Shown here: positions 5,802 to 34,297 of the stretch, in pieces
How positions within the stretch are numbered: the first letter of the stretch is position 1
Layout of the letters: each line of letters opens with the position of its first letter
From: a virus
Strand: one strand, 5' to 3'
Length of the DNA stretch: 34,560 bases
IMG/VR virus record: IMGVR_UViG_3300032116_000724
Location: 1-34,560 of that record
Notes under the pieces: model-generated
Told to the model about the DNA's origin: nothing
The model's input: the letters and a program-made list of their open reading frames with translations, nothing else
Database searches by the model: none
Position numbers and translations under genes: made by a program

Positions 5802-6136
5802 TAAAACCTAACCCCATGTTTCTCTGGTCTAGTCTTATTAAATCCAGTCTTGTTTTCAAATGCGTAATCTAGCGATACATTGGTATATCCTTGTTCAACT
5901 AAACCAGCATACAGGTCCAGGGTACGAATAAGAATGTCTGCAAACTCTGCAGCAATCTCGTCTTCGCCCTTATCCTTGCGGATTGCTTCCATGACCTCGG
6001 TTACTTCAGATACAATCATCATCAGTTGCTTTGTTACAAAAATGTCCACCTGTTCTGCAGATGCATCATCAATTACTTTCCAGAAACCTTTTTTAACTGC
6101 TGTTTCGTGCAGCTCCATTGCGAGTTCATCAAACAT
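5801..6136 (-). CDS. MazG-like nucleotide pyrophosphohydrolase
   Basis: An all-alpha NTP pyrophosphohydrolase of the MazG/dUTPase-like superfamily, 111 aa. The magnesium-binding motif is readable as SEVTEVMEAI (ExxE) followed by AAEFADILIRTLD (ExxD). In phages these enzymes are thought to clean up modified nucleotides or alter (p)ppGpp and dNTP pools; the substrate here is unknown. Start choice: GGAGG lies directly against the ATG at 6145 but 9 nt before the ATG at 6136, so 6136 is preferred and the protein begins MFDELAMEL. That ATG overlaps the end of the polymerase gene by 8 bp. It lies between polymerase and recombinase, a natural place for a dNTP-pool enzyme. Confidence 0.82.
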   Translation of the reverse strand: MFDELAMELHETAVKKGFWKVIDDASAEQVDIFVTKQLMMIVSEVTEVMEAIRKDKGEDEIAAEFADILIRTLDLYAGLVEQGYTNVSLDYAFENKTGFNKTRPEKHGVRF

Positions 6137-9100
6137 TGAACACATCCTCCATTATCGTTGTTCCATCTTTTGTTTTGCCTAATGCAAACTTATAAACATT
6201 TCCTTCATCCAACTTCATGTATGCCTTAGCAAATGTTGTTGGAAAAACTGTTACGCTATGCAATTCTCTGGCGGCATCTGCCAAGACTAGCGAAGCCATC
6301 TTCTTACCAGCCTTAGTAACTCTTGGCTTGAAAGACACTACAAACAGTTCATCATCCTTGTATGGCAACTGCCTAAAGTTAAGCAACTTAATTAATGCAG
6401 ATGCATTACCCTTAACTTCATCTGCAGGAATTGCAGTAACAATTCTATTATCAGTCACCAATACAATGTATGTACGACCAGCTTCAATAGTAGTATTTTC
6501 ATCGTCAAAGATACCTGTGCTACCAGTCTTATCAAGTAATTCTACCCTTGACCAACCCTTGCCACGCTTGATAGCCTTAATCATACCCATCAAAACAAAA
6601 GCACCCTTTTCTTCATACTCTTCCACATCATTAATAAATGCGTGGTAGTGCTGTGGAATAGAAATACTAAACTCTGGTAGATTTAGATACTCATACAGGT
6701 TCTCACGGATAGCTTCATCATCTCTAGGATTATCGTCAAAGGTTGCAGCACCCACAAGTCTTAAAGCCTGTAGTGCACGACTATTTACACCACTACCCTT
6801 AGTAAAAGTAAATTCTTCAAGTTGCTTATATGATTCGAATGGTCTAGCAGCAAGATACTTGCTAGCAATGTTATCACTAATAAACTTAATAGCAGTTAGT
6901 CCAAATCTAATACCCTTGCCTTCAATCTTAAAGTCAACATCTGATTCGTTTATGTGTGGCAAACGAATAGGAATACCCATACGCTTTGCTTCAATAAGAT
7001 ATTCTGTACGAGCATCCTTGTCGCTTTCATTTTTCAATAGCGAATACATGAACTCAATTGGGTAGTTGTACTTTAGCCATGCTGTCCAATAAGATACAGT
7101 AGAATAAGCAACAGCGTGAGACTTGTTAAACGAATAGCCAGCGTGTGCTTCAAAGTCATGCCACAGGTCTTCTGCCTGATTAGGAGACAAGTAGCGTGAA
7201 GCATTCTTTACAAACTTATCTTGGAACACCTTAAACTCTTTAGCATCTTTCTTCTTACCAATAATCTTACGAACCTTATCGGCTTCAGCCATTGTCATAC
7301 CGCCAAGTTCCACACAGGCAAGCATAACTTGTTCCTGATACAGAATACAGCCATAAGTTTCCTGAGTGAAAGACTTAATAACTTCATGCTTGTAATCAAT
7401 GTTTTGCTTACCATGCTTACGAGCAACATAATCCTTACCGATAGTATTCATAGCACCTGGACGAACCAAAGCGTTAGAAGCAGCAAGTTCTGAAAAGTTT
7501 TTTACAACCATCTTAACCAGAAGATTTGTATATGGTGCAGCTTCACATTGAAACACACCCTTAGTATAACCATCAGAAAGCATACGATAAACATTTGCAT
7601 CATCCATCTTAATTTCATGCAGGTCAATCTCTTCCCCTGTACGCTCCTTGATGATAGCAAGCGTATCCTGAATAACAGATAGAGTCTTTAGACCCAAGGC
7701 ATCAATCTTAATTAGACCAATGCGTTCTGCTTCTTCCATGTCTACTGCTACTACTGGAATACGTTCCTTGCTACCTGGAGTTGTTCTAGTCTCCAATGGT
7801 GCATACTTAAAGATAGGTTCTTTAGCAGTCACCACACCAGCAGCGTGAATACCAGTACCACGAATACGACCACGAAGTTGCTCACCATACAATTCAATCT
7901 CTGGATACTTCTCACGGAACTCAGCAGTTGACTTAGATGTTAAATAATCATCCCAATCATCAACAAGCTTAAGAACCTTGTTCACATCTGGCAACGGAAT
8001 ATTAAGCACACGAGCAATGTCACGAATCATTCCCTTACCCTTAAACTCTAGGAATGTTGCAATAGAAGCAACATGACGATACTGGCGAACAAGGTAATCC
8101 TTTACTTCTTCACGTCTAGAATCCTGAATATCTGTATCGATATCTGGAAAGTCATTACGCTCTGGATTGATAAATCTGAAAAATAGTAGCCCATGCTTGA
8201 TAGGGTCAATGTCAGTAATACCAAGTGCATAACATAGCAAAGAACCAGCAGACGAACCACGACCAGGACCAACCATGATGCCTTCTTTCTTAGCCCAGTT
8301 AATCATATTACGAACAACTAGAAAGTAAGGTGCAAAGTTTTTGTCTTTAATAATCTGTAGTTCTTCTTCAATTCTTGCATGATACTCTGGGTCTAAATCA
8401 AGCTTCAAAGCTTTTAGACCATCCATAGCTAACTCAGATAACTCTTTGTTAGGATTCTGATATTGTGTAGGTAGCAAATCAACGTAGTCTTTAATGTTAT
8501 AGTCTTCAACCTTATTAACAATTTCAAGTGTGTTGTCATACATGTCTTGTCTTACAATACCCTGAGCTTCCATAGCCTTGTGCATCTCTTCATCAGAAAG
8601 CAAATGAATTTCATAATCCCTAAAAGTAATCTGGCGGTCAGCACCATAAAGATAATCTAGTTTATCTATCAGGTTATCATACTTCTGGCTACCAGCAAAC
8701 GTGGCATCCTTATCAACCTTATTAGAATATGTATTCAGAATTAGTTTTAATTCCTGTATTTCTCTTTGGTCTGGACCAGCGTGATGGCAGTCAGGTGTGA
8801 CAATGGGTTTGATACCAAATTCATCTGCAAGACTTAGGATAGTTTTATTAATCTCTGGTGGATTATGTGGCATAACTTCAATGTAGTAATCATCACCAAA
8901 GGTTTCTTTAGCCCATTGTAGGTGCGACTTAGCACTTGCCAAATCATCTGCTTCAATAGCTTTTGCAAGATAGCCAGACAGACAGCCTGACGTAATAATA
9001 AGACCTTCTTTATACTTCTCTAACGAAGCCCAGTCCATTCTAGGCTTCTTAAAGAAACCTTCTGTCCAAGCAATCTCGTTAAGCTTATTAAGGTTTTCTA

Positions 9101-9410
9101 AACCTTTTTCGTTTTTAGCAAGAATGATTAGGTGGTTGTAAACCAAATCTAATGGGGTGTCTTCTCTTTCATTCTTATCACGTTGGTCAAATCTATCTTG
9201 TGCAATGTATCCTTCAACACCAAGAATTGGTTTGATACCCTTTTCAATTGCGGCACGATACATTTCACGATGTCCAGATAGAGAACCGTGGTCTGTAATA
9301 GCGATGGCTGGCATTCCAATCTCGATTGCCCTGTCCACATATTCTTGTGGTGTCGCAATGCCATCAAATAGCGAGTAGTGAGTGTGAACGTGTAGCCCAG
9401 CATAACTCAT
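6129..9410 (-). CDS. dnaE: DnaE-type DNA polymerase III alpha subunit with intact PHP domain
   Basis: Replicative C-family DNA polymerase of 1093 aa, slightly shorter than the bacterial enzyme. The N-terminal PHP domain (about residues 1-280) keeps candidates for all metal ligands: H7, H9, D16, H41, E66, H93, C143, D207 and H209. The palm follows with GPGRGSSAGSLLCYALG and the catalytic aspartates in PDIDTD (423, 425, 427). Fingers, beta-binding and helix-hairpin-helix regions follow (for example AHAGYSFNKSHAVAYS), and a C-terminal OB-like segment begins near FVLMGMIKAIKRGKGW. AAGGA lies 7 nt before the ATG at 9410. No separate 3'-5' exonuclease is seen, so PHP proofreading, as described for actinobacterial DnaE1, is plausible. 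Confidence 0.95.
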   Translation of the reverse strand: MSYAGLHVHTHYSLFDGIATPQEYVDRAIEIGMPAIAITDHGSLSGHREMYRAAIEKGIKPILGVEGYIAQDRFDQRDKNEREDTPLDLVYNHLIILAKNEKGLENLNKLNEIAWTEGFFKKPRMDWASLEKYKEGLIITSGCLSGYLAKAIEADDLASAKSHLQWAKETFGDDYYIEVMPHNPPEINKTILSLADEFGIKPIVTPDCHHAGPDQREIQELKLILNTYSNKVDKDATFAGSQKYDNLIDKLDYLYGADRQITFRDYEIHLLSDEEMHKAMEAQGIVRQDMYDNTLEIVNKVEDYNIKDYVDLLPTQYQNPNKELSELAMDGLKALKLDLDPEYHARIEEELQIIKDKNFAPYFLVVRNMINWAKKEGIMVGPGRGSSAGSLLCYALGITDIDPIKHGLLFFRFINPERNDFPDIDTDIQDSRREEVKDYLVRQYRHVASIATFLEFKGKGMIRDIARVLNIPLPDVNKVLKLVDDWDDYLTSKSTAEFREKYPEIELYGEQLRGRIRGTGIHAAGVVTAKEPIFKYAPLETRTTPGSKERIPVVAVDMEEAERIGLIKIDALGLKTLSVIQDTLAIIKERTGEEIDLHEIKMDDANVYRMLSDGYTKGVFQCEAAPYTNLLVKMVVKNFSELAASNALVRPGAMNTIGKDYVARKHGKQNIDYKHEVIKSFTQETYGCILYQEQVMLACVELGGMTMAEADKVRKIIGKKKDAKEFKVFQDKFVKNASRYLSPNQAEDLWHDFEAHAGYSFNKSHAVAYSTVSYWTAWLKYNYPIEFMYSLLKNESDKDARTEYLIEAKRMGIPIRLPHINESDVDFKIEGKGIRFGLTAIKFISDNIASKYLAARPFESYKQLEEFTFTKGSGVNSRALQALRLVGAATFDDNPRDDEAIRENLYEYLNLPEFSISIPQHYHAFINDVEEYEEKGAFVLMGMIKAIKRGKGWSRVELLDKTGSTGIFDDENTTIEAGRTYIVLVTDNRIVTAIPADEVKGNASALIKLLNFRQLPYKDDELFVVSFKPRVTKAGKKMASLVLADAARELHSVTVFPTTFAKAYMKLDEGNVYKFALGKTKDGTTIMEDVFNV

Positions 9411-13644: not shown

Positions 13645-14097
13645 TTATAGTTGCGTTAATCCAACAGCCATGACTGAAAGGTCAAAGCCAACTTCATTGG
13701 TGAATGTTGTTGAACTATATATAGTTACCACAATTGTGCAACCTGATTTATTAACATCTATAATATTAATACCTGGAACATGCACACCAGGAGTACCTGC
13801 TTTAAAACTAACTGATGGAAATATTAATGGAGCTGAAAGAAAAGTTTTATTAAAAGAAATAGAGATTTGTTGAGAAGCTGATACTTGGCTACCACTTCCC
13901 TTTATGTTGCCAGATGTAAAATTAGTAGCAATTGCAAAAGTTCCCATATAAGAATTAACTACTGTCTTAGTAGATGTATCATATATTGGAGAGATTGTGT
14001 TTGCAAACTTACTAGAAACACCATTAACTTCATCAATGATTGAGTTTAGCAAAGTCTGGTCAACTAAAGAATTTGAGGATACATTTGGAATAGTCAT
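13645..14097 (-). CDS. Terminal minor tail protein with lectin-like beta domain
   Basis: A 150-aa, strand-rich protein rich in Ser, Thr and Asn. After a helical N-terminus (residues 10-35, SLVDQTLLNSIIDEVNGVSS) comes a repeated beta pattern: QQISISFNKTFLSAPLIFPS, GINIIDVNKSGCTIVVTIYSS and VGFDLSVMAVGLTQL. The layout resembles H-type-lectin or fibre-tip domains (strand, 'F..AP', strand, terminal 'AVG'). Being the last gene of the tail run, it may be a receptor-binding protein. There is no Shine-Dalgarno; a TGGTATAAT ends exactly 6 nt before the ATG, indicating a separate leaderless transcript. Lectin fold and receptor role are inference. Confidence 0.7.
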   Translation of the reverse strand: MTIPNVSSNSLVDQTLLNSIIDEVNGVSSKFANTISPIYDTSTKTVVNSYMGTFAIATNFTSGNIKGSGSQVSASQQISISFNKTFLSAPLIFPSVSFKAGTPGVHVPGINIIDVNKSGCTIVVTIYSSTTFTNEVGFDLSVMAVGLTQL

Positions 14098-21640: not shown

Positions 21641-22251
21641 TATGCTTGCTCCAAACTAATTGTTATATCCCACAAATCGTGGTTTGTCTGTCCTCGCTTT
21701 TGAACGCTATACTGAAAATCTGCAATATACATTTCTAAAACTTCGTTATATTGTTTAAGTTGACCATAAGGTGATGCATTTGCTTTATCGTAAGCATAGT
21801 CATATGATAAAAATACATAAAATGTTCCAGTATGGTTTTCATACCAATCTAATAATTCTACACCACCAGCTCCACCATCTACTGTATATTCTAGTAGGTC
21901 AGATGCTGTCTCAACTCCAGAGCTATTAAAAAGTGGGTCTTTGTTAAATGCTCTAGAAGGCAAACTTTGCCAAGATACTGACAATGCTTTTTTATCTGCA
22001 ACATGGTATGAACGCATACGACCATTAATCATACGTTGACGATTTTCAATTCTTTGTGGAGCAAAATCAATTGGTGCTCTATTGTGGTCAGACAGTATTA
22101 AAAACTGTTCATTGGTATTAGAACTACTGCCATATTCATTGAGGTCTGGAATATATTTTCCATTTACAAGACTTCCAGGATTATCTGAGAATAGGATGGC
22201 TTGTGGTCTAGAATACTTAATTCTATTAGACATATATTGTTCTGTAGCCAT
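21640..22251 (-). CDS. Distal tail protein-like minor tail protein
   Basis: A 203-aa protein between the tape measure and hub genes, the place of the distal tail protein (Dit) in siphoviruses. Recognisable parts are NRIKYSRPQAILFSDNPGSL, a YHVADKKALSVSWQSLPSRAFNKD segment (about 81-104), GGVELLDWYENHTGTFYVFLSYD, and a C-terminal NHDLWDITISLEQA. The 'ADK..LSVSW..LPSRA' segment recurs in actinophage minor tail proteins as I recall. Both ends are joined by TAATG overlaps to the genes on either side, and GGAG precedes the following start. Family assignment rests on position plus this motif. Confidence 0.75.
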   Translation of the reverse strand: MATEQYMSNRIKYSRPQAILFSDNPGSLVNGKYIPDLNEYGSSSNTNEQFLILSDHNRAPIDFAPQRIENRQRMINGRMRSYHVADKKALSVSWQSLPSRAFNKDPLFNSSGVETASDLLEYTVDGGAGGVELLDWYENHTGTFYVFLSYDYAYDKANASPYGQLKQYNEVLEMYIADFQYSVQKRGQTNHDLWDITISLEQA

Positions 22252-25200
22252 TAGAAATTACTTCCCCTTACTCTATGATTATCAATCTTTTTAATCTCGT
22301 TCATAACTACCCTGGCAATTTGGCTAGGGTCAGACTGTGAACTAACACTTACGTTTATACTATAATTATACACTGAATCGCCTATTGATGTTTCACTTGT
22401 GCTACCGCCAACAAGTCCACCATCAGCAAATCTGTTAATCTTTTCGAGGGTACTTGCACCAATTCTGTCAACAGCAGACTTCTTAATAACAAATTCTCCT
22501 GGAGTAAGCATAGCAGGAACAGTATCTGTACCAATAGCAAAACCACCATTAGCAAAAAACTTCGGGTAGGTAAGACCATTTCTAATAACATTTATAGGAG
22601 AAACCATACCACCAGTAGCAAACATTTGGCTTACAATTGCTCCAAAACTACCAAGCATACCGCCTGAAGCACCACCAGAACCACCAGCACCTCTACCAGA
22701 CCAACCGCCTTGGTTTTTAACATATTTAATGATTCCAGATTCATCTGACATTGGTTTATTTTTAGCTTCTCTATACCAATCTTGATTCAATGTCCTATAT
22801 TTTTCTGACAAATGTTCTGCAGGAAGATTTGCACTAGTTTTAAAACGTTTGATATTATCTAGCTGATTAAATCCATATTTAGCTTTAATATTTGTTCCAA
22901 TATCAATATAGTAAACTGGAACACCTAATTTTTTATCATATCTTATTTTCACTAATTTCATTCCAGAACCAGGGGCAAGTAGTGCATCTGAAACATTACT
23001 TACACCTGGGAATAAATGATTTATATCATTAATACCTGGAATAGGTGTTTTTACATTAAATTTTATAACTGGCATATTTGGACTTCTACCACCAGTATCT
23101 GCACTACCAGATATCATATCTTGTAAAAATGATTGAGATGTTGGATGATTTTCATTAAAAACAGACATATATCTATCTAAAATAGCTGACTGTCCTGGTT
23201 TCATTCCTTTTAAAATTTGCATATCAGACCAGTTTGCCACACGAGATATTGCTGTTTCAGAGTCTATGGTAAATTTGTTTCTTAATATAGCATTGCCAAT
23301 ATTTTTCTTATTGTAGTCAAAATAATTTCCCAATGCAGAATATGGTCTTTTAACATATTCTTGCAAAGAATATGCCTCTTCAGGTGTTAGATTGTATGCT
23401 TTAGTTATTTCTCTAAGAAGTCCAGGAACGTTATTTAGGTCAAAGCTCTGTCCTGGAGTCATTGGACCAAATGCTCTGCCCATTGCTTGCCATCTATTAG
23501 ACATAGCCTTGTCTGTAGAACCACCATTTTTATATCCAGCCAAGCCACCGTCAGCATATTTACCAATAGTTTTTTGTTTTCCAGAATTTTTAGGAGTGTC
23601 AAAAACAGTACTTCTGGGTATAGCAAAAAGACTACCATTATATGTAAATGGTCTCATAGCTTGACTCTTGCCATAATTTTCAATCATTTGCATGAGTGTC
23701 TTGCCAGCAGTGTTTCGTTTTAATTCTTTATATCCAGACCAAGTGCTACCTCGCAATAAAAACTCTGACAAACTAACATTTTTATCGTACAAAGTCTCTG
23801 CAGTCATACCTGCCTGACGATTAGCATAAGTAAGAAACTCATTTTTCACTTTTGCAAAATCTTCTGGACTTACAACATCTTGAATTTTTGTTTTAAATCC
23901 TAAAAGATTCTTTGCCATTATATTAGGGTAGTCTATAGATAATGCACTTGCCCCTACTCCCTTTGCTGCCTCAAGTATTCCCAGTTGTTCATGGAATTTA
24001 GGGTCTTTTACAAATGGTGCTAACTTTTGCATTCTAGAAAGAATATGGGTTGGAAATTCATCGTATTTAAATCCAGCCCTTGCCCAAGCATAACCACCGT
24101 CTGTCATGGAAGCCTGAATATTTATTTTCTTTGCTCCAAGGTTTCCCATAAGTTCTTGTATTTGAGTAGTAAACTTTTGAGCAATTCCCTTACCTCTATA
24201 TTTTTTATTTAACTCTAAGAAAACATCAAACAGTTCTCTGTCGTATACCCCTGCTCGAACTGTTCCTGCTGGCTCATAAAAATATCCTTTAGTTTTAGAC
24301 TTTTTATCTTTAACTCTTTTAAATAAAGATGCGGAAATCTCTAAAAATTCTTCATAATCAGCGTCATTTAAAATACTCGATAAATAGTTAGATTCCCCTG
24401 CATTTTGACTAAATACACCAATGTTCTGAAGCTTTATACCCCTACCCAATTTCATTTTATCTAATTGGTTTCTAAAATCCGCTATATTTGGATAGTTATC
24501 AAGACTATCTACATTATAATTACCAAAGCTTGTTCTAAATCCATATGCTTTAGCAAGCATCATTGTTTGTAGGTCTCTTATCTTTTTCTGTGTTGGTCTA
24601 TAAGCTTGTTTAGCACCTTTCTTTATTTTACCGCCAATCATTCCAGGCATACCCTTTAACTTTGTAAAAAACTCATTTGGCATTTTAATACCTGACGGTA
24701 TAGGAATCAAACCCTGTTCCATCAATGCTCCATAATGAGTTACACCATATTGCTTTACAAGGTCTTCTACTACCTGCTTACCTGGATTAACCTCAATAGG
24801 CACATGCTCTAATCCAGCTTGATTCAACAACATTCTTAGTATTCCTACAGAATCCTGAAGCTTTTGTCCAGAATTTGCCCAAGACATATCCATATTAAGT
24901 ATAATCTTTTCAATCTCAGAAGTAGTAAAACCACCAGGAGTTTGTGCTTCAATATATGGATGGTTATAATATGGGTTTCTCATATTAGCCCTTGATTTTC
25001 TAATAGTTTCTTCTGTAATATTTTTTTGTTTAGCTAAACCTCTCCTAGTAAAGAAAGAAGAAAATGGTGAAACCTTTGGAACCTTTAAGCCAAGCAGATT
25101 ATATCCAGAATATGCTGACAATGTATCTCCATAACTAAATGTACTTCTAGCCAATACACTTGGTTTTGTTATTACAGTATAATCTCCATACATTTTTGGT

Positions 25201-28200
25201 GTTGCTGTAGGATTTATCATTTTCAGAGCATGGTCTCTTAATACCTGGGCTGGTGCTGTTGAAGCGTTTACACCTGGATATGTTGTTCCCATAGTATGTG
25301 GAACTGTTTCTCTAGATGTCAAGAATCCATAAGCTGGAATTTCTGAAGACGATGCAGTTCTAGGAACACCCATCATCAGTTCTTCAAGAATTTCCCTTTG
25401 TTCAATAGTATCTGACGTTGAACTTCTTACTCCATCTCTAACAGTCTTATATTGACCTTCTTTTAAGAAGTTCCACAAACCTTCTTCTCTCATGTTAAAA
25501 CCAATTGTTGGAGACAAATCTGCCATTTGTTTTGCGGTTAGTTTATCTCTTCCTGTGGTAGCAAGAATTTTCTTTGCAGTTGCTGTTGCCTTAGCTGTTT
25601 TAATTGCATTACCTATACGAGATGATGTTCCAACTCTTCCAGCAGAACCAGCAAGTCTTGCTGTACTGCCAACTCCCATACCAGCAAGCGAGAATGGTGC
25701 AAGAATAGCACCAAACCAATCCCAGAAATCTCCCTTTCCAGCAAAAATGTTTTGATAAGATTCTGCTAACCCAAATCCTCCAAGCACATCGCTACCATAT
25801 GCTCCACCTTGTATAATTGGATTTGACAAACCAGCAGCAATGTCATCTAGGGTCATACGGTATGGCTTTTTCTTTTTCTTTTTGTCTTTCTTATTTAGAT
25901 TAATTAATCCACCGTCAGAGTACCCTCCAGCAATACAGCCAGGACATCCAGGTCTTCCACAAGGACATGCAACCAAACCACCTTTAGCAAGTTGTTTAGG
26001 TGCTGGTTCTGGTATAGGCATAGCAAAACCACCCATAGCAAATCCTAATCTTTTATATGTTCCAAGATTTGGATTCATAACAAACGAGTTAGGGCTATTA
26101 TCAAACCAGTTATTCTTATTACCATAATCGTTTGTCATATAATTATATGCAAAATCATAAATAGGGCTATCTTTTGGAATATTTCCTGAAATACCCAAAT
26201 AATTTCTTGCATAATCTAACTTTGCAGATGGACCTTTTGGAGGATTTAGAAGTCTATTATATCTATCACCAAATCCTATTTGTCCAAGCATTGTTTTTGT
26301 AACAGCAGGACCAAATTCTGCATGCATAGAGTTTACAAGATTTTTAAATTCAAATGGGTCAAGACCGTCCCAACCAGGAATCATTTTACTAGTTTTGCCC
26401 AAAGCCATTAATGCTCTTGCTTTATCCAAATCTCTACCGCCAGTAGAATTTGCATAGACTCTTGGATTCATAAATGCTTTAGCATATGTTGCAATAGTAT
26501 AAAGAATTGGATTTTTAGTTGTAAATATTGTAGTATCTTTATTTAAATCTGGTAAATAAACATTTTCTGCAAGTCTTCTTCTGCCCTGCAAAATTTTACT
26601 ATAGGCTTCAATGATATCTAAAGGATTTTGATTAGCTTTTTTATTTGGGAATGCTTCTCCAATTGAACCAAATATTTTTTTATTTGTTAAAGGTGAATTG
26701 AGTGGATTATATTTCTGGAATGGACTATCTCCCCAAGTATAAGGAGATGGTCCTGTTTTTGTTTTACCAAATGCACCACCAACAGCAGACGGTGCACTCC
26801 ACTGATAATATCCTGGATAATTTGCTGTGTCATTAAATGCGGATTGTTTTCCGCCAGTCCAATCCCACCAAGTAGGGTCATCTTGTCTTGTTAATGGTTT
26901 AAATAATCTAGAGACTCTATTAATATATTTGTCTAGAGAATTTTTATCATTTACATCTACAGGACCTCCTTGGTCATATCCACGAACCATACCTCCAGCA
27001 GCAAAACCTAATTTGTCTGCCTGGTTCAATTTGTCAAGGGTATTAACACCAATTCTTTGAACTGCTGCTGCTCTAATAACATATTCACCATTAGATAACA
27101 TTGCTGGAATACTGTCACTAGTACCGTGCCCAGCTCCAACAATATAACCACCAGAAGCAGCTTTCTTTTCTGGAACATATCTTCTAAGAACTGGGTCCCA
27201 TACAAACTTTTGATTTGCATCACCACCAGCATTTTTACCATATCTAGAATTTATATAATTAAATGGCTGTTCTTTATTTAATGCATCAAGTCCTTTTTTG
27301 TCTACAACAACTTCAATTGTAATCTTAGATATTCTTTCTCCAAGTTTATCTAATTGAGTATTCAAAGAATCTACGCTATCTTGGAAACCTTCTTGCTGGT
27401 CTTTTAATGGCTTCAGCTCTGCATCTCTAGCATCCTGTAATGCTTGCTGCTGATTCTCCAAAGCATTTTGAATATCATTAGTTTGAATTTGTTGTGCTGC
27501 CCTAGCAGCTGCACCAATGTCACCCTTATTAAGAGCTTCTGCTAAATCTAACTGACCTTCCTGAGATTGCGAAATCTGTTCATTAAGATTTTTAATCTTT
27601 TCAATTTGCTTAATTCTTTTATCATATTTTTCATTAATCTTATCTTCAAGCTTACCCAAATCTTTAGTCTCTTGTTGAATTCCCTTTATTTGTTTTTTAA
27701 CATTTTCTTGTTCTTTTCTTAATGATGTTGCCTGATTAATAGCATCTGTTATTGCAGTATTTTGAGCTTTTACCTGTGCATCAGTTCCTTCATTCAAAAC
27801 TGTAATTATGTCTGCATTGATTGTTAAACCTGCTGCAACTGCTTTAAATACATTTGCCATGCTTGTAAAATCATTTAAATATTGAACTGCTTTTCCAATT
27901 TCTGGATTAAGTTCAGTTAAAGCAAGTTTCATCAACTGAACACCCTGTGCAGGATTAGTTGTTTCTAATCTCTCAAACTTTTGTTGCAATACATCAAAAT
28001 TAGTATTAAATTCTTTTCCAGTAATTATCCCTTGCTCAAACTGTGCAGACAAACCTTGAACATAAGAAGCAACTGTTGCAATAGATGCCTTAGTCTTAGA
28101 CTGTTCTTCAAAATCAAATAGTCCCTTTTTCTTAAAGTTATTTTCGTACATTGCAAAAGTAGAACCTAGTTCTGACTGGAACTGTTGAATAGTCTTTTTA

Positions 28201-31200
28201 CCAAAATCAAAAGAAGCAAAGTCTATGGATACGTTTGTTTTATTAGCTGCTTTTTGTATTGATTGAATAATTACTTTAGTTGCTTCGTCTCCAATTCCAG
28301 TACCCAGCAATTGTGCTCCAAGAGCTGAAATAGCTCTCTTAAATTCTGCATTTGTAAGATTCTTTAGTTTTTCAGCAGACTGTTGATAGTTATTTTTAAA
28401 TTCATCTGTTGCCATAAACTGTTCAGATAGTGTTGCTTCTTTGGTTGTTTGCCCTGCTGCACCCAAAACAGCTGCTTGAATACCACCAATTTTACCTTCG
28501 GTACCAAAGAAATTATTGACTGCATCAATTTTATCTTTCGTTATGTTTAAGCTTTCTGTAATACCATCATAAGCATCTGCATTCTTTCTAAGTTTTGGAA
28601 GAATAAGTGCTTCATATGCCTCATATGCTAAAACAAGACCACCAACAACAGGAACAAACCTTGTTAAACCTTTTATCGCAAATCCCATTAATTTTTCTGA
28701 GTTTAAAAACATTGAGCTAAGTTTAGATATTGGTCCTCCAAAAAGAGCACCTATATTTAGTATTGCTCCAGCACCGCTAGCAATTTGTCCTACTGGTCCT
28801 GGCATAAACATTCCAGCCATAGACAAAGCCATACCTGCACCAAAGCCTCTATTCATAATTTTTTGACCTCTGGCTTTTGTAACTTGTTGCTGAGTATCTT
28901 TATCTAAGTCTCTAAATGGTAACTGAATATTATTACCATCTGCATCTGTTGCATCATATTGTTTATTAAATAATTTGCCAAACAGATTTCTTTCAAATCT
29001 ATTGCCTTTGAAATCTTTAACAGGTTGCATTCTCTTTTCATCAGCTTTAGCTTTATAGTATTCTGGCGGAATTGTTGAAAAACCTTCTTCAAATTGACCA
29101 TTAGAATATATCATAGTGGTTTGTCCACCAGCTTGATTTTCTTGACCAGTTACTCTTCTACTAGTTTTTCTTCTTGCATTTGCAGCCTGAGTTCTTGCAA
29201 TAGCTGCATCTTTTGCATTTTGATATGCTACACCATCATCGTGACCATCTTGTGGTGCAGTTGGATGTGGACTTCTTCTTCTTTTACTTCTTGATTGATT
29301 TGCAGAATCATTTTCTTCTCTATCTAATACTTTTTTCTTTTCTTGATTAAATGCTTGCCCAGCTATTTGTCCTTGTTTGGCTTGGCTCTGTCTTACTCTT
29401 TCTTCTGCTTGTCTTATCTTATTTTTATCTTGTTCTAAAGTTGTAGCAACATGCTCTTGGCTCATTTGCGAGCCATAAGCAATTGATTTAGTATCCAACA
29501 TCGAACCTTCATCAAGCATAAATCTTGGAACGCCAGTTGAACCAAATGCTGATGCACCACGACCCAAAATACTTAATACTGCTCCTCTAGCCTTTGAAAA
29601 TGCTCCGTAAAGACCTGGCTTATTCATCGACTGTGCTGCTAAATTATTTGGTAATGCGGTGAGAAGTTTTGCATTATCTCCTGCATTTCTTATATTAAGA
29701 CCCATAGATTTTGCAGTTGTTTGCATTTGTTTAAAATCTTGTGACAATGCTGGAAACATCTGTCTGGCTGTTTCTGTAAACTTAAATACAGGACCTTGTG
29801 CCTTTTTCATATCTGCTGCAAATTTACTAGACAATTCTTTAAATGCTTCAGCTGGTGGAATTCCTTGGTTTACTAAATCGGTTGCTCTTTTTATTGCATC
29901 AAGATTTGCTGATTTCCAATTATCAATTTCTTTATTTATTGCGGCACGAGTAACTCCAGATTGTGCTAAAATTTCTGGAGCATATGCATAAGAAATATTT
30001 TCTAAAGTTGATTCTAAACTTAATACATCTAATGCTCCAGATGTATTGGAAACATTTTCTTTATACCCGACTGGTAAAGTAAACAATGATTTTCCAACTC
30101 TTCCAGAACCGCCAGAACCAATTCTACCCTTTTTACCAACAATTACACCTTCGGCATATTGAGGAATATTATCACTAATAAGGTTTCTAATAAGTTCTGG
30201 GAATTTAGCAACAGATTTGGCTGGTATAACTGCTTCCCCATTTGAAAGCATTGCTGGAATTGAATCTGATGTTCCAGTACCTGGACCACGAATAATGCCA
30301 CCAGTAGCATATTTACGAGTTGGACCTGCAGGTGTTCTAGGTATAATTGGAACATTAAGTGCTTGCTGTGCTGCAACAGCTTGACGATATGCACCTGTAA
30401 GTCTGTTTACTGCATCTGCTTCAAGACTAAATGTTTGTCTAAGCTTAGAATGTGTCTGGTCAAGAGATGCCGCTACCCCTGCTGCTTCAAGTTGTTTTTG
30501 AGTCATATAACTAACTTGTTCACCAAGTGTTAGCGATGACTTACCAGTCTTATTAAATAAATCTTTTACTAATGCAAAACCCTTAATTACGTTAGCAACA
30601 CCGTTAGCGATAAGACCAAATGTCATAAGAAGAACTGGTCCAATTACTCCAGCTACCGCCACAACTTTAACAATAAACTGTTTTACACCATCACCCAAAC
30701 CATTAAACTGTTTTAAAATATTTGTACCAAATTCAATAATTGGTGTGACCGCTTTCATAAACTGTTCACCAATTGGTGCCAGTTGGGCTTGGAAATCAGC
30801 TACTGATTTTTGGAATTTATATAGTGGAGAACTTTGAATCTTATTCAATTCTCGTTGAGATAGCATAGATAGTTCTAGACTTGATTGAGATGCTAGTCTT
30901 AGAACTTCTGCTGCCTGGCTACCCTGGTCAACTACGTTCTTAAACAAAGTAGACATACGAGCAAACTGGAACTTACCAAATAGCTGCTCAATAGCACGAG
31001 CACGATTTAGTGGGTCTAGAGTATCTAGAGCCTTAGCAAAGTCAACAACTGTTTTCTTTAGGTCTCCCTGATTACCTTCAACAATTTTCTTAATATTAAT
31101 TCCAAAACCTTGTAGCATTTCTGCTGCTTTACCTGTTGGATTAATCAAAGATGCTAGACCAGACTTAAGTGCGTTAGCACCTTCAGAAGCATTAATACCA

Positions 31201-32306
31201 CCTTCACGCATTGCTGTCATAAAGAATGCTAAGTCTTTAACATCTCCACCCAGTTGCTGAATTACAGGAGCTGCTTTTGGAATAGCAGTAGTCATATCTT
31301 CAATGTTTAGAATTGTTTGGTTTTCAACAGCGTTCAAAAAGTCTATATTTGTTTTTAGGTCTTTAGCAGCAATACCAAATGAGTTTGTTAGAGATATAGT
31401 TGTTTCTAGTGCTTTTGCTTGGTCTACCTGACCCAAAACAGAAAGTTTCGTAGCATTAGATATTTGTTCTAAAAGGTCTGCACCTTTTTTACCAGTAGCA
31501 GCTGCGGTAGCAGCCATCTCCATAGTATCCTTAACTGCAACACCATATTTAGTAAATTCTGTTGCAAGTTGCTGAACTTGCTTTACAATCTTATCTGTTT
31601 CTTGTGCAGTAGTAGAAAAATCACCATAAACACGTCTTAGTCTAAGTCCAGCTTCTTCAATTTGCTGGTAAGCTTTCATTGCTGCCCCACCCATAATTGT
31701 TAGTGGAATTGTAAAACCAACCATAAGCTGACGACCAGCCCATTGAGTGTTCTTACCAAAGTTCAATAGATTTGTAGAACCCTGTTTTAAAAGTTGATTT
31801 AAAAGTTGTTGTCTTTGTGCTGAAATAGCTGTTTTGGTAGCAAGACTTTCCATGTCAAGAACAAGCGGTCTAACTTTAATTGCTTGCATTGCACCATTAG
31901 CATCACGACCAAGTTTAATATATTGTGTTGCAAGGTCTTTAACTCTTTCACGAGCAACCTTGTTTATTGTTTCAAATTCTGTAGCAAAGAATCTGCCAAA
32001 TGATTTAGAAGATGCTCCAGCATATCTAAAATATTCTCCAAGAGAGAGTTTGTTTTTTTCTAGGGATTCTGTAAACGATTCTGTAGTGGTTTTTATCTTT
32101 GTTATGCTTGCTGCAAATTGACCACCAGCATTTATTGAGTTGACAAGATTTTGTCGCATATTGGCAGCTTGGGCAGCATTGGCTGCACCCATCTTTGCCA
32201 TTTGTGTGTGAAAGGCTGAGATTTGGTTTTGAAGTTGCTTAATGCTTTCCAAAGCTCCAGAAGTATCAACATTAATTCTAATATTGGACTGGATTTCATC
32301 AGCCAT
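22251..32306 (-). CDS. Tape measure protein (3351 aa) with embedded domains
   Basis: Sets tail length and helps DNA ejection. The N-terminal half holds the phage-minor-tail/TP901-like core (about 180-530), for example WAGRQLMVGFTIPLTIMGGA and LNIEDMTTAIPKAAPVIQQL. Hydrophobic stretches lie at about 537-573 and 1150-1195, and a coiled coil at about 1520-1680. Three copies of a 'GT-D-S/V-IPAML-GE' motif occur near residues 675, 1726 and 3257. Between about 2110 and 2930 are unusual inserts: a CPCGRPGCPGC cluster, a Lys run, a domain with EIPAYGFL and RSTFSYGDTL, and a GNAT-like segment. At roughly 1.5 angstrom per residue the maximal tail length would be about 500 nm, probably less given the globular inserts. 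AGAGG lies 9 nt before the ATG. Confidence 0.93.
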   Translation of the reverse strand: MADEIQSNIRINVDTSGALESIKQLQNQISAFHTQMAKMGAANAAQAANMRQNLVNSINAGGQFAASITKIKTTTESFTESLEKNKLSLGEYFRYAGASSKSFGRFFATEFETINKVARERVKDLATQYIKLGRDANGAMQAIKVRPLVLDMESLATKTAISAQRQQLLNQLLKQGSTNLLNFGKNTQWAGRQLMVGFTIPLTIMGGAAMKAYQQIEEAGLRLRRVYGDFSTTAQETDKIVKQVQQLATEFTKYGVAVKDTMEMAATAAATGKKGADLLEQISNATKLSVLGQVDQAKALETTISLTNSFGIAAKDLKTNIDFLNAVENQTILNIEDMTTAIPKAAPVIQQLGGDVKDLAFFMTAMREGGINASEGANALKSGLASLINPTGKAAEMLQGFGINIKKIVEGNQGDLKKTVVDFAKALDTLDPLNRARAIEQLFGKFQFARMSTLFKNVVDQGSQAAEVLRLASQSSLELSMLSQRELNKIQSSPLYKFQKSVADFQAQLAPIGEQFMKAVTPIIEFGTNILKQFNGLGDGVKQFIVKVVAVAGVIGPVLLMTFGLIANGVANVIKGFALVKDLFNKTGKSSLTLGEQVSYMTQKQLEAAGVAASLDQTHSKLRQTFSLEADAVNRLTGAYRQAVAAQQALNVPIIPRTPAGPTRKYATGGIIRGPGTGTSDSIPAMLSNGEAVIPAKSVAKFPELIRNLISDNIPQYAEGVIVGKKGRIGSGGSGRVGKSLFTLPVGYKENVSNTSGALDVLSLESTLENISYAYAPEILAQSGVTRAAINKEIDNWKSANLDAIKRATDLVNQGIPPAEAFKELSSKFAADMKKAQGPVFKFTETARQMFPALSQDFKQMQTTAKSMGLNIRNAGDNAKLLTALPNNLAAQSMNKPGLYGAFSKARGAVLSILGRGASAFGSTGVPRFMLDEGSMLDTKSIAYGSQMSQEHVATTLEQDKNKIRQAEERVRQSQAKQGQIAGQAFNQEKKKVLDREENDSANQSRSKRRRSPHPTAPQDGHDDGVAYQNAKDAAIARTQAANARRKTSRRVTGQENQAGGQTTMIYSNGQFEEGFSTIPPEYYKAKADEKRMQPVKDFKGNRFERNLFGKLFNKQYDATDADGNNIQLPFRDLDKDTQQQVTKARGQKIMNRGFGAGMALSMAGMFMPGPVGQIASGAGAILNIGALFGGPISKLSSMFLNSEKLMGFAIKGLTRFVPVVGGLVLAYEAYEALILPKLRKNADAYDGITESLNITKDKIDAVNNFFGTEGKIGGIQAAVLGAAGQTTKEATLSEQFMATDEFKNNYQQSAEKLKNLTNAEFKRAISALGAQLLGTGIGDEATKVIIQSIQKAANKTNVSIDFASFDFGKKTIQQFQSELGSTFAMYENNFKKKGLFDFEEQSKTKASIATVASYVQGLSAQFEQGIITGKEFNTNFDVLQQKFERLETTNPAQGVQLMKLALTELNPEIGKAVQYLNDFTSMANVFKAVAAGLTINADIITVLNEGTDAQVKAQNTAITDAINQATSLRKEQENVKKQIKGIQQETKDLGKLEDKINEKYDKRIKQIEKIKNLNEQISQSQEGQLDLAEALNKGDIGAAARAAQQIQTNDIQNALENQQQALQDARDAELKPLKDQQEGFQDSVDSLNTQLDKLGERISKITIEVVVDKKGLDALNKEQPFNYINSRYGKNAGGDANQKFVWDPVLRRYVPEKKAASGGYIVGAGHGTSDSIPAMLSNGEYVIRAAAVQRIGVNTLDKLNQADKLGFAAGGMVRGYDQGGPVDVNDKNSLDKYINRVSRLFKPLTRQDDPTWWDWTGGKQSAFNDTANYPGYYQWSAPSAVGGAFGKTKTGPSPYTWGDSPFQKYNPLNSPLTNKKIFGSIGEAFPNKKANQNPLDIIEAYSKILQGRRRLAENVYLPDLNKDTTIFTTKNPILYTIATYAKAFMNPRVYANSTGGRDLDKARALMALGKTSKMIPGWDGLDPFEFKNLVNSMHAEFGPAVTKTMLGQIGFGDRYNRLLNPPKGPSAKLDYARNYLGISGNIPKDSPIYDFAYNYMTNDYGNKNNWFDNSPNSFVMNPNLGTYKRLGFAMGGFAMPIPEPAPKQLAKGGLVACPCGRPGCPGCIAGGYSDGGLINLNKKDKKKKKKPYRMTLDDIAAGLSNPIIQGGAYGSDVLGGFGLAESYQNIFAGKGDFWDWFGAILAPFSLAGMGVGSTARLAGSAGRVGTSSRIGNAIKTAKATATAKKILATTGRDKLTAKQMADLSPTIGFNMREEGLWNFLKEGQYKTVRDGVRSSTSDTIEQREILEELMMGVPRTASSSEIPAYGFLTSRETVPHTMGTTYPGVNASTAPAQVLRDHALKMINPTATPKMYGDYTVITKPSVLARSTFSYGDTLSAYSGYNLLGLKVPKVSPFSSFFTRRGLAKQKNITEETIRKSRANMRNPYYNHPYIEAQTPGGFTTSEIEKIILNMDMSWANSGQKLQDSVGILRMLLNQAGLEHVPIEVNPGKQVVEDLVKQYGVTHYGALMEQGLIPIPSGIKMPNEFFTKLKGMPGMIGGKIKKGAKQAYRPTQKKIRDLQTMMLAKAYGFRTSFGNYNVDSLDNYPNIADFRNQLDKMKLGRGIKLQNIGVFSQNAGESNYLSSILNDADYEEFLEISASLFKRVKDKKSKTKGYFYEPAGTVRAGVYDRELFDVFLELNKKYRGKGIAQKFTTQIQELMGNLGAKKINIQASMTDGGYAWARAGFKYDEFPTHILSRMQKLAPFVKDPKFHEQLGILEAAKGVGASALSIDYPNIMAKNLLGFKTKIQDVVSPEDFAKVKNEFLTYANRQAGMTAETLYDKNVSLSEFLLRGSTWSGYKELKRNTAGKTLMQMIENYGKSQAMRPFTYNGSLFAIPRSTVFDTPKNSGKQKTIGKYADGGLAGYKNGGSTDKAMSNRWQAMGRAFGPMTPGQSFDLNNVPGLLREITKAYNLTPEEAYSLQEYVKRPYSALGNYFDYNKKNIGNAILRNKFTIDSETAISRVANWSDMQILKGMKPGQSAILDRYMSVFNENHPTSQSFLQDMISGSADTGGRSPNMPVIKFNVKTPIPGINDINHLFPGVSNVSDALLAPGSGMKLVKIRYDKKLGVPVYYIDIGTNIKAKYGFNQLDNIKRFKTSANLPAEHLSEKYRTLNQDWYREAKNKPMSDESGIIKYVKNQGGWSGRGAGGSGGASGGMLGSFGAIVSQMFATGGMVSPINVIRNGLTYPKFFANGGFAIGTDTVPAMLTPGEFVIKKSAVDRIGASTLEKINRFADGGLVGGSTSETSIGDSVYNYSINVSVSSQSDPSQIARVVMNEIKKIDNHRVRGSNF
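22460..22534 (-). repeat. Tape-measure Gly/PAML motif, copy 3
   Basis: It encodes GTDTVPAMLTPGEFVIKKSA, the standard form of this motif in actinophage tape measures, near residue 3257, within a Gly-rich context (NGGFAIGTD, FADGGLVGG). Confidence 0.85.
24060..24270 (-). other. GNAT-like acetyltransferase segment inside the tape measure protein
   Basis: Residues about 2679-2749 read VRAGVYDRELFDVFLELNKK, then YRGKGIAQKFTTQIQELM, then AKKINIQASMTDGGYAWARAGFKY. 'RGKGIAQKF' matches the acetyl-CoA loop Q/RxxGxG/A of GNAT enzymes, and 'GGYAWARAGF' matches the late GNAT strand-helix. The second half of the fold is only partly convincing. This is a domain annotation, not a separate gene. Confidence 0.5.
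25121..25380 (-). other. Embedded enzyme-like domain in the tape measure protein
   Basis: Residues about 2308-2395 contain MMGVPRTASSSEIPAYGFLT, YGDYTVITKPSVLARSTFSY and GDTLSAYSG. The order 'IPxYGxL ... YGDxxVxxKPSVxxRxTFxxGDSL' recalls a domain seen in some phage head/tail and toxin-like proteins; an ADP-ribosyltransferase-type fold is one possibility. I cannot name the family from sequence reading alone. Confidence 0.4.
25930..25975 (-). other. Cysteine cluster inside the tape measure protein
   Basis: Residues about 2110-2126 encode ACPCGRPGCPGC, four cysteines with CxC and CxxC spacing. The flanks are Gly-rich (AKGGLV, AGGYSDGG), and a NKKDKKKKKKPYR Lys tract follows about 15 residues later. 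Four close cysteines could hold a metal ion. Confidence 0.6.
27058..27126 (-). repeat. Tape-measure Gly/PAML motif, copy 2
   Basis: It encodes GTSDSIPAMLSNGEYVIRAA near residue 1726. The first 14 residues (GTSDSIPAMLSNGE) are identical to copy 1. It is flanked by ASGGYIVGAGH and FAAGGMVRGYDQGG. Confidence 0.85.
30210..30279 (-). repeat. Tape-measure Gly/PAML motif, copy 1
   Basis: It encodes GTSDSIPAMLSNGEAVIPAK near residue 675, immediately after the hydrophobic N-terminal core and a TGGIIRGPG lead-in. Confidence 0.85.
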
Positions 32307-32334: not shown

Positions 32335-32649
32335 TTAGATTAGACCACCAATAGCGGTGTCTCCTAATTTAATACCAGATGCTTCTTCCACAATGCTATA
32401 AACGGTTGGTAGGTCTAGAAGTTCTTCTAGTGCCTTTGCGTCCGTTGCAATTTCTGGCTTGTACTGCTTTAGTGCAATTTGTACACACTCCATAAGCAGA
32501 TTCATTGATTTGTCGTTGTCATCGGCAACAGCAGCGATTGCATCAAACTTTTTCATAAATTCACGAAGTAGTGAAATTTTGAGCGGTCTAACAACAATCT
32601 CTGTTCCATCAATAAGAGTAATTTTCTTCTCTTCATTAACAGTTGTCAT
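32335..32649 (-). CDS. Tail assembly chaperone, short 'G'-like form
   Basis: A 104-aa chaperone that would coat the tape measure before tail-tube polymerisation. Its core (residues about 18-97), VRPLKISLLREFMKKFDAI, then LMECVQIALKQYKPEI, then LEELLDLPTVYSIVEEASGI, aligns with residues about 22-95 of the upstream gene's product, so the two are paralogues. It ends 28 bp before the tape measure ATG, with no room for a frameshifted extension. Expression signals are strong: TGCTATAAT about 27 nt upstream and AAAGGAGG 4 nt before the ATG. It corresponds functionally to gpG in lambda, here as an independent gene. Position and homology both support the call. Confidence 0.83.
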   Translation of the reverse strand: MTTVNEEKKITLIDGTEIVVRPLKISLLREFMKKFDAIAAVADDNDKSMNLLMECVQIALKQYKPEIATDAKALEELLDLPTVYSIVEEASGIKLGDTAIGGLI

Positions 32650-32653
32650 AGTT

Positions 32654-32661
32654 CCTCCTTT
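32654..32661 (-). promoter_or_regulatory. Strong ribosome binding site for the short tail chaperone
   Basis: AAAGGAGG stands 4 nt before the ATG at 32649. It is the best Shine-Dalgarno match among the structural genes that I checked, and contrasts with the apparent lack of one before the long chaperone form. Confidence 0.85.
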
Positions 32662-32675
32662 AAAGGTATAATAAA

Positions 32676-32684
32676 ATTATAGCA
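32676..32684 (-). promoter_or_regulatory. Extended -10 promoter before the short tail chaperone
   Basis: TGC-TATAAT lies in the 45-bp gap between the two chaperone genes. A start about 7 nt downstream leaves a leader of about 20 nt containing the AAAGGAGG site. No -35 is evident, as is usual for extended -10 promoters. It would drive the short chaperone and the tape measure. Confidence 0.65.
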
Positions 32685-32694
32685 CATTGAAGGC

Positions 32695-33411
32695 TTATTT
32701 GCTATCATTTATTACTTCATAGTCAAGACCATAACCAATACCAAAGCCAGCTTGCTGTGCTTTTATACCTTGTAGAGATGTTATGTCATTAGGGTCTCCA
32801 GTACCAATACCAGATGCTTGTGCAGCTACTCTGGCTTTCATGGCTTCCCAAGGGTCTTCTTTAGTCTTTCCAACTGCTTCGTCAAGGTCTATTCCCTTTA
32901 GAGATGCAGTAAACTTCTTATCTTGATAGTCTAATTCTCTTTTTTGTTCGAGAATAGCCATTAATTCTGATAAGCATATTGAAGATTCTAATTCATCATA
33001 GTTTTTCCAAATACCCAACAAAAATGCTTCTGATTCTAATTTATTTAAGTCTAAATCATCCCATGTGCTTTTCTCTGTTTCTTTAACCTGTGTTTGTTTC
33101 TGTGTTTCTTCTTCAGGTTCGTCTGGGTCCATATTTATACCGCCAGCATATTCCAATATTTTATACATTGTTTTCAAATCAAACACATCTTCAAAATCTT
33201 CTGGAGTTTTTATTTCTGGATAAAACTGTTTCATAGCTATCGTTGCACACTCAATTAACTTATCCTGAACCTCTTCTTCAGTTTTTGCATCTTTAATTAA
33301 ATTAAAATTATGCATAAACTGTCTCATATATTTAATTTTTAATGGAGAAATCTCTATTTCTTCACCATAAATTGTTTTAACATAATTTACATCGTATATT
33401 TTTGTTGGCAT
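32695..33411 (-). CDS. Tail assembly chaperone, long 'GT'-like form in one frame
   Basis: A 238-aa chaperone. The N-terminal domain (ISPLKIKYMRQFMHNFNLI, then IECATIAMKQFYPEI, then MYKILEYAGGI) is paralogous to the 104-aa protein downstream. An acidic linker follows (DPDEPEEETQKQTQ), then a second domain with TWDDLDLN, SICLSELMAILEQKRELDYQ and KKFTASLKGIDLDE. This second part matches what the frameshifted 'T' half of lambda-type gpGT looks like in actinophages, but here it is continuous with no frameshift. The ATG at 33411 is preferred over the TTG at 33414, because TGGTATAAT ends exactly 6 nt before it and no Shine-Dalgarno exists, suggesting a leaderless message. Confidence 0.8.
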   Translation of the reverse strand: MPTKIYDVNYVKTIYGEEIEISPLKIKYMRQFMHNFNLIKDAKTEEEVQDKLIECATIAMKQFYPEIKTPEDFEDVFDLKTMYKILEYAGGINMDPDEPEEETQKQTQVKETEKSTWDDLDLNKLESEAFLLGIWKNYDELESSICLSELMAILEQKRELDYQDKKFTASLKGIDLDEAVGKTKEDPWEAMKARVAAQASGIGTGDPNDITSLQGIKAQQAGFGIGYGLDYEVINDSK

Positions 33412-33417
33412 CAATCT

Positions 33418-33426
33418 ATTATACCA
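33418..33426 (-). promoter_or_regulatory. Extended -10 promoter, leaderless start of the long chaperone
   Basis: TGG-TATAAT is followed by AGATTG and the ATG at 33411. It sits immediately after the U-rich end of the major tail protein terminator, so the stop of one transcript is followed at once by the start of the next. There is no Shine-Dalgarno. Confidence 0.68.
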
Positions 33427-33458
33427 AAAGAAACTGCCCCAGGAATCCCCAGGGCAGT
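33426..33458 (-). terminator. Intrinsic terminator after the major tail protein
   Basis: Minus-strand RNA forms ACTGCCC paired with GGGCAGT around a 12-nt GC-rich loop, followed by TTTCTTTT. The stem is only 7 bp but GC-rich. It lies about 20 bp after the stop of the major tail gene. It would separate a highly expressed gene from the chaperone genes. Confidence 0.78.
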
Positions 33459-33478
33459 CTCAACGATATTAAATTATT

Positions 33479-34213
33479 TTAGTAGGTACGGTCGATAATC
33501 TTACCATATGCACCCTGAGCATCGGGTAGCAAACGGAATTCTACATCGAACATAGTAGCTGAATCACGCTTAGATGATACTGTGACGTTCTGAATAGATA
33601 CTGCACGGTATGCAACATAGATACGCTCTTCATCGTCTACTGTTGTGTTAACACTAGCACCAACTGCAATAACTCCACGTTCTACTGGGTAGTCACCAAG
33701 TTCTCCTGAGAGAATATCGATGTATCCAGAAGAAGTGTTTGTAGCAGGTGTTGTCAATGTTGCTGTAGTTGTTAGCGGAGTTGTTACACCACCGTCAGAC
33801 CAAGAACTGATTGTGCTTCCTAGAACACCAGCTGTAGACACAGTTGCATCCTTCTGGGTAATTGCCATAAGCAAGTTTTCCAGAGTTGCTTCTGCAAGAC
33901 TTGTTCTTAGAGTGACTGTCATTCCAGACTTGAACAGACGTGCTGTGTCTAGAAGTTGGTCAACCTGAACGTCTCCAAATGTTGGAGTGAATGTTAGGTC
34001 TAGACCATTGCTGGTATAACCAACGTTACTTACCTTTGTGCCCCATCTGTCTGATAGAGTTGTCTTGTAAGACTCTCCTGAAACAGTTGCTGGAAGACCA
34101 GCAGCTACTCCAACAGCGGTTGTTGAATCACCAATTGTCTGACCAGACTTTGTTACGAATAGTGCCGCTGCACCAACAACAATGTTTGTTGCGGTTCCTC
34201 TTAAATATGCCAT
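33479..34213 (-). CDS. Major tail (tube) protein
   Basis: A 244-aa structural protein expected to polymerise around the tape measure into the tail tube. The N-terminus (MAYLRGTATNIVVGAAALFV) and the repeated beta pattern, including VGYTSNGLDLTFTPTFGDVQVDQ and a C-terminal MFDVEFRLLPDAQG, fit the tube-protein fold; the T/S/A-rich central region is typical. It is the only gene here bracketed by its own promoter with recognisable -35 and -10 and by a terminator, as expected for the most abundant tail protein. It directly precedes the chaperone and tape measure genes, the usual order. A C-terminal Ig-like domain is not obvious. Confidence 0.85.
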   Translation of the reverse strand: MAYLRGTATNIVVGAAALFVTKSGQTIGDSTTAVGVAAGLPATVSGESYKTTLSDRWGTKVSNVGYTSNGLDLTFTPTFGDVQVDQLLDTARLFKSGMTVTLRTSLAEATLENLLMAITQKDATVSTAGVLGSTISSWSDGGVTTPLTTTATLTTPATNTSSGYIDILSGELGDYPVERGVIAVGASVNTTVDDEERIYVAYRAVSIQNVTVSSKRDSATMFDVEFRLLPDAQGAYGKIIDRTY

Positions 34214-34268: not shown

Positions 34269-34297
34269 ATTATAGCATTCATTTATGGTTGTTGTAA
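34269..34297 (-). promoter_or_regulatory. Promoter of the major tail protein gene
   Basis: TTACAA (-35, 34297-34292), a 17-nt spacer, and TATAAT (34274-34269) preceded by TGC as an extended -10. The predicted start is about 45 nt before the ATG at 34213, and GGTGA lies before that ATG. It is the most complete promoter in the window and lies within the end of the upstream gene. Confidence 0.72.

Follow-up and report, generated by a model that had tools for sequence, protein, structure and literature searches.

Two paralogous genes in place of a programmed frameshift: a putative tail assembly chaperone pair in aquatic actinophages

Introduction

The ribosomal frameshift that yields the tail assembly chaperones G and GT is near-universal and among the most conserved recoding events known, being kept across long-tailed phages that share almost no sequence similarity. 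The window analysed here, a stretch of 34,560 nucleotides of viral DNA (positions 1 to 34,560 of IMG/VR record IMGVR_UViG_3300032116_000724), departs from this arrangement. At its chaperone locus, an actinobacterial phage probably encodes G and GT in two distinct genes, the G:GT ratio being set by two nested transcription units. With somewhat less assurance, comparison of related loci favors a wider reading, in which the frameshift would have been replaced once, in a large clade of aquatic actinophages, by gene duplication and nested promoters, a weak leaderless start serving GT and a strong start led by a Shine-Dalgarno sequence (SD) serving G.

In the mechanism proposed, the 104-residue product of the short gene would be G, many copies of which would coat the tape measure protein, while the 238-residue product of the long gene would be GT, present in few copies and recruiting the tail tube protein through its T half. 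A terminator would insulate the chaperone cassette from the transcript of the major tail protein. The weaker, predicted leaderless promoter would then give an mRNA covering the long, short and tape measure genes, and the stronger internal promoter, with its SD leader, an mRNA covering the short and tape measure genes. A ratio formerly obtained by slippage would thus be obtained from two nested transcription units.

Organization of the locus

All features of the locus lie on the minus strand, and are given below from the proximal to the distal end of the cassette.

34269-34277, minus strand: TGCTATAAT, extended -10 preceding the gene for the major tail protein
33479-34213, minus strand: major tail protein gene, Ig-domain type (phrog_2175), a position annotated likewise in Streptomyces phages
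33430-33461, minus strand: intrinsic terminator hairpin, then TTTT, 3' of the major tail protein gene
33418-33426, minus strand: TGGTATAAT, extended -10 ending 6 nt from the ATG of the long gene; predicted leaderless start
32695-33411, minus strand: long chaperone gene, an in-frame G-T fusion, predicted GT protein (238 amino acids)
33121-33411, minus strand: G-like domain of the long gene (AlphaFold2 pLDDT 87-94 over residues 11-90)
33067-33120, minus strand: linker of the long gene, acidic and predicted with low confidence, devoid of a slippery heptamer, at the position of the frameshift site in relatives
32737-33066, minus strand: T domain of the long gene, from domain mapping
32676-32684, minus strand: TGCTATAAT, extended -10 of perfect sequence between the two chaperone genes, 26 nt from the ATG of the short gene
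32654-32661, minus strand: AAAGGAGG, Shine-Dalgarno sequence of the short gene
32335-32649, minus strand: short chaperone gene (solo G), whose product of 104 amino acids is the predicted G protein
22251-32306, minus strand: tape measure protein gene, with a Shine-Dalgarno sequence (3351 amino acids)

The order is therefore major tail protein, terminator hairpin, long gene, short gene and tape measure, all on one strand, and in annotated relatives the chaperone genes likewise follow the major tail protein and precede the tape measure. The long gene starts with the ATG at 33411, one codon downstream of an in-frame TTG, and is open from end to end over its 239 codons (stop included). A gap of 45 nt separates it from the short gene, which ends 28 bases before the tape measure ATG at 32306, exactly as the first-pass annotation had placed this G-only gene. 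The tape measure protein is about 1000 residues longer than its counterparts in Streptomyces and Rhodococcus phages (about 2100-2300 residues, from coordinates); its residues 2677-2730 form a weak acetyltransferase-like stretch, below the cutoff. To note, the phage also encodes a DnaE-type DNA polymerase III alpha subunit (6129-9410).

Relatedness and assignment of the two products

It had been proposed from the sequence of the window that the two genes share a homologous N-terminal domain and that only the upstream one continues in frame into a T-like half. Both points hold. The N-termini of the long and short proteins are related, with 35 of 86 residues identical (41%, E=2e-18 in pairwise comparison), and both genes match phrog_10504 (E 3.6e-18 and 3.2e-16). 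Residues 133-213 of the long protein, and nothing in the short one, match phrog_10474, the T half (E 2.9e-16), in an open frame. The two coding units have in common an N-terminal G domain, which one of them extends with a C-terminal T. The two PHROG families are listed as being of unknown function, and the present assignment suggests that phrog_10504 is G and phrog_10474 is T. Searches with tblastn against the chaperones of Streptomyces phages returned E values of 1e-32 for the long protein and 6e-14 for the short one; those annotations are position-based, and the T assignment is one of homology to phage genes annotated by position and not by experiment.

The AlphaFold2 model of solo G (pLDDT 85) comprises a β-hairpin and four helices. 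The model of the long protein exhibits the same order of elements at residues 8-89, followed by the poorly predicted linker and by helices in T. When the solo G model was compared with 269 re-aligned PDB chains, the tail assembly chaperone of phage HK97 (gp13, PDB ID 2ob9) ranked first, with a weak Z of 4.6 over 83 residues and 12% identity, and the matches in BFVD include annotated tail assembly chaperones. These structural matches agree with the chaperone assignment but fall short of proof, a Z of 4.6 being too low to establish a common fold. A sequence search of the PDB returned nothing significant, and a Foldseek search of the PDB with the long model returned no match, the latter probably owing to the low-confidence linker and C-terminus.

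Two classes of locus and the slippery site

Among public phage records, the closest homologs belong to Streptomyces phages of the Stanwilliamsviridae and to Rhodococcus phages, in which a single G precedes a T in the -1 frame. In Coruscant, Gilson and Bartholomune, T overlaps the end of G, and conserved T residues are found upstream of the annotated T start; in Rhodococcus phage NiceHouse, G and T are annotated as a joined CDS. In public records of Streptomyces phages (L001, L002 and L003), T is annotated separately, its start falling within the conserved T domain; conservation of the part upstream shows that T should be joined to G in these records through a -1 shift.

Searches of IMG/VR matched the long protein at 54 loci and the short one at 302, with at least 583 matches for the T alignment. 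When G and T were mapped with HMMs on every locus retrieved, 207 unique complete cores were obtained, and these fall into two classes only: 161 have a fused GT and a solo G, the same layout as the window, and in 46 a G precedes a T that lies in a different frame. T is continuous in frame with G in every one of the 161 fused loci, and with this agreement an artefactual frameshift from assembly or sequencing is rejected as the source of the fusion. In the frameshift class, T lies in the -1 frame in 45 of 46 loci. The single exception, L151, has a shortened G and an unusual frame relation at about 3900-3981, where CCCAAAC is still present; this may be a true deletion or an assembly error.

No intermediate, whether a frameshift locus with a second G or a fused GT lacking a solo G, was found among the 207 unique loci. 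At seven loci with a single GT (L170, L200, L224, L305, L020, L033 and L050), the locus ends shortly past the fused gene. Long contigs of the fused kind (95-118 kb) contain exactly two G domains in 12 of 12 cases, and three records of the frameshift kind contain one each. Each of the 13 long records tested, 12 of the fused kind and one frameshift-kind MAG, encodes a WhiB, which points to actinobacterial hosts. A scan of genome contigs found one frameshift-type locus only. To note, the frameshift-type locus L218 comes from a MAG labelled as a cyanobacterium, with WhiB on contig 31 of that genome; it is perhaps an actinophage contig that was wrongly binned.

The two classes also differ in their slippery sites. 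Near the end of G, 41 of the 46 frameshift loci have a canonical in-phase heptamer, which is CCCAAA[C/T] in slip phase in 39 and a different one in 2; the remaining 5 have none. CCCAAA occurs in 21 of the 27 non-redundant frameshift loci. Two loci close to the fused clade (L152 and L195) have GGGAAAC, and two Streptomyces phages (L001 and L176) have CCCGGAA at the place of CCCAAAC. In the 161 fused loci, CCCAAA in slip phase is present neither at the G-T junction (0/161) nor at the end of solo G (0/161). Among the 53 non-redundant fused loci, the junction harbors some canonical heptamer in 11, fewer than the 35% obtained after codon shuffling, and no motif is conserved among these heptamers, which speaks against a hidden frameshift at the fusion junction.

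Inspection of the 239-codon gene of the window gave the same picture: no canonical in-phase heptamer lies at its junction. The only one in the gene, AAAGGGA at codon 171, is located inside T, where a -1 shift would hit a stop after 3 residues. The pair of the window thus departs from a programmed -1 frameshift cassette in both frame and slippery site, and the initial suggestion that two paralogous genes stand in for the frameshift is supported by the 161 related loci.

Evolutionary history

In a tree of 80 loci built on the N-terminal 400 residues of the tape measure protein, a single branch (support 90) separates the fused loci from the frameshift loci that surround them; with shuffled labels, about 23 changes are needed. 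In the tree of G domains, solo G forms one clade (99/91). A single clade of fused G is not rejected (AU p=0.32), its support being weak (54% of bootstraps). Solo G and fused G are both nested among G domains of the frameshift type.

Duplication with in-frame fusion is the best-supported history, since frameshift-type relatives surround the fused kind and both types of G nest among theirs. On the sequence evidence, an ancestral gene with a -1 slippery site was duplicated once, one copy being fused to T in frame with loss of the slippery site, and the solo copy arose by loss of T from the other duplicate. The duplication of G and its fusion to T, put forward in the first-pass annotation, is in this way supported by both trees and by the -1 frame and heptamer of the relatives. 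The simplest reading is that a tandem duplication occurred once, at the origin of the fused clade. This duplication probably carried the regulatory region along, because the promoter and leader of the solo copy are still of the ancestral type. The fused copy evolves faster and has a new start, predicted to be leaderless.

All parts of the pair are under purifying selection, with median dN/dS values of 0.07 for solo G, 0.09 for fused G and 0.05 for T. Mean pairwise identity is 48% for fused G, as against 67% for its solo counterpart and 70% for T: fused G diverges fastest, the identity of solo G is the higher in 98.6% of pairs, and T is the most conserved. The faster evolution of fused G, and the unusual length of the tape measure protein noted above, would also suit specialised paralogs that form a mixed oligomer, one covering for instance the N-terminal part and the other the insertion of a tape measure of such length, with the two starts setting timing instead of a G:GT ratio. 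Such a specialisation seems unlikely, however: T is fused to one copy only and is the most conserved part, which is exactly the division of labor between G and GT, and a minor component of the pair would be expected to evolve faster as well.

Starts, promoters and terminator

The two genes have opposite and conserved types of start, which is the new part of this analysis of the loci. Upstream of the long gene, the motif TGnTAnnnT is found in 50 of 51 loci. It ends 6-9 nt before the ATG in 49 of 51 (exactly 6 nt in 35), and its hexamer is mostly non-consensus (TATACT, TAAAAT or TAGAAT), with a perfect TATAAT in 7. An SD of at least 5 bases is present upstream of none of the 51 long genes. The short gene, for its part, is preceded by TGnTATAAT in 51 of 52 loci, nearly always 24-38 nt before the ATG, and by an SD of at least 5 bases in 45 of 52, the leader of 24-38 nt harboring AGGAGG. 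The G gene of the frameshift class resembles solo G, with an SD in 26 of 27 loci and, in 17 of 27, an extended -10 that mostly lies 23-29 nt ahead of the start. An SD also precedes the tape measure gene, with a promoter motif in 2 of 53 loci only; none was found for the tape measure gene of the window.

In shuffled upstream sequences of 60 nt, TGnTAnnnT occurs anywhere in 12% and TGnTATAAT in 0.5%, and among the other ORFs of these loci a -10 of the leaderless type at 6-9 nt precedes 2 of 225. In actinobacteria, where about one fifth of genes are leaderless, TANNNT about 12 bp 5' of the start codon marks such genes (PMC3160421; PMC3898074). From the position of its -10 and the absence of an SD, the long gene is predicted to be leaderless in the actinobacterial manner. 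Elsewhere in the window, a gene for a 150-residue protein with unassigned function (13645-14097, minus strand) is preceded by TGGTATAAT, which ends exactly 6 nt before the ATG, with no SD; it is predicted to be a second leaderless gene of this phage.

An equivalent of the terminator upstream of the long gene is found in 41 of 52 fused loci by a strict test, as compared with 2 of 260 shuffles. As there is no terminator between the long and short genes and the long message also carries G, G mRNA is expected always to exceed GT mRNA. Leaderless translation in mycobacteria is no weaker than SD-led translation (PMC8485053), and the predicted excess of G would consequently rest mainly on the quality of the -10 and on the nested transcripts. 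The window is the case where the promoter contrast is smallest, both of its -10 hexamers being perfect TATAAT. There, the TATAAT of the long gene ends 6 nt from the ATG and the longest SD match is 3 nt; given this hexamer, the contrast between the two genes of the window rests on the leader, the SD and the nested messages.

The -10 of the long gene could conceivably be unused, GT being kept low solely by poor, SD-less translation of mRNA that reads through the terminator. Terminators usually leak, and the SD that is absent from all 51 long genes is present in neighboring ones. The -10 is nevertheless held at 6-9 nt in 49 of 51 loci despite change in the surrounding sequence, and shuffling produces the motif within 60 nt just 12% of the time, which makes a silent promoter decidedly improbable. 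Very little credence is given to the long gene still yielding a short G through an unrecognised shift, a stop or proteolysis, with solo G as an extra: non-canonical slippery sites do exist in this family (CCCGGAA for CCCAAAC in the Streptomyces relatives), but the junction has no conserved heptamer, the frame through G, linker and T is open in all complete fused loci, and solo G is strongly constrained and has its own promoter and SD.

Comparison with known systems and significance

A separate G gene and a continuous GT gene, read from nested transcription units, would set this clade apart from relatives with which it shares much. The Stanwilliamsviridae phages Coruscant, Gilson and Bartholomune have homologous G and T at the same place and in the same domain order, and a homologous T is likewise found, at the same place and in the same order, in the Trinavirus members NiceHouse and Trina that infect Rhodococcus. 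The G gene of the Streptomyces phages also has a promoter-like -10 and an SD-led start. Both groups differ from the window by their single G, their T in the -1 frame and the absence of a second G gene. The open-licence literature searched yielded no account of a G/GT pair that is duplicated and free of the frameshift. The nearest possible precedent is reportedly the work of Vladimirov, Gautam and Davidson (2022, Virology 566:9) on the tail assembly chaperones of T4-like phages, which are unrelated myoviruses.

The resemblance to phage lambda gpG and gpGT is in the products: two predicted proteins with a common N-terminal domain, one of them extended by T, encoded before the tape measure. In lambda, a gpG:gpGT ratio of roughly 30:1 is required and is provided by slippage (PMC5009743). 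In contrast, the window lacks a slippery site, and GT is encoded by a single uninterrupted ORF, G by a gene of its own.

A clade devoid of the frameshift, standing beside relatives that have it, constitutes a natural experiment on why the frameshift persists. Should the phage need nothing more than a fixed ratio, ordinary promoters and start sites would be enough. The two-gene arrangement would make the ratio measurable through standard counting of transcripts and proteins, and G and GT could be removed separately. If the proposed mechanism is true, the control of a fixed protein ratio has moved in these phages from ribosome slippage to the initiation of transcription and translation.
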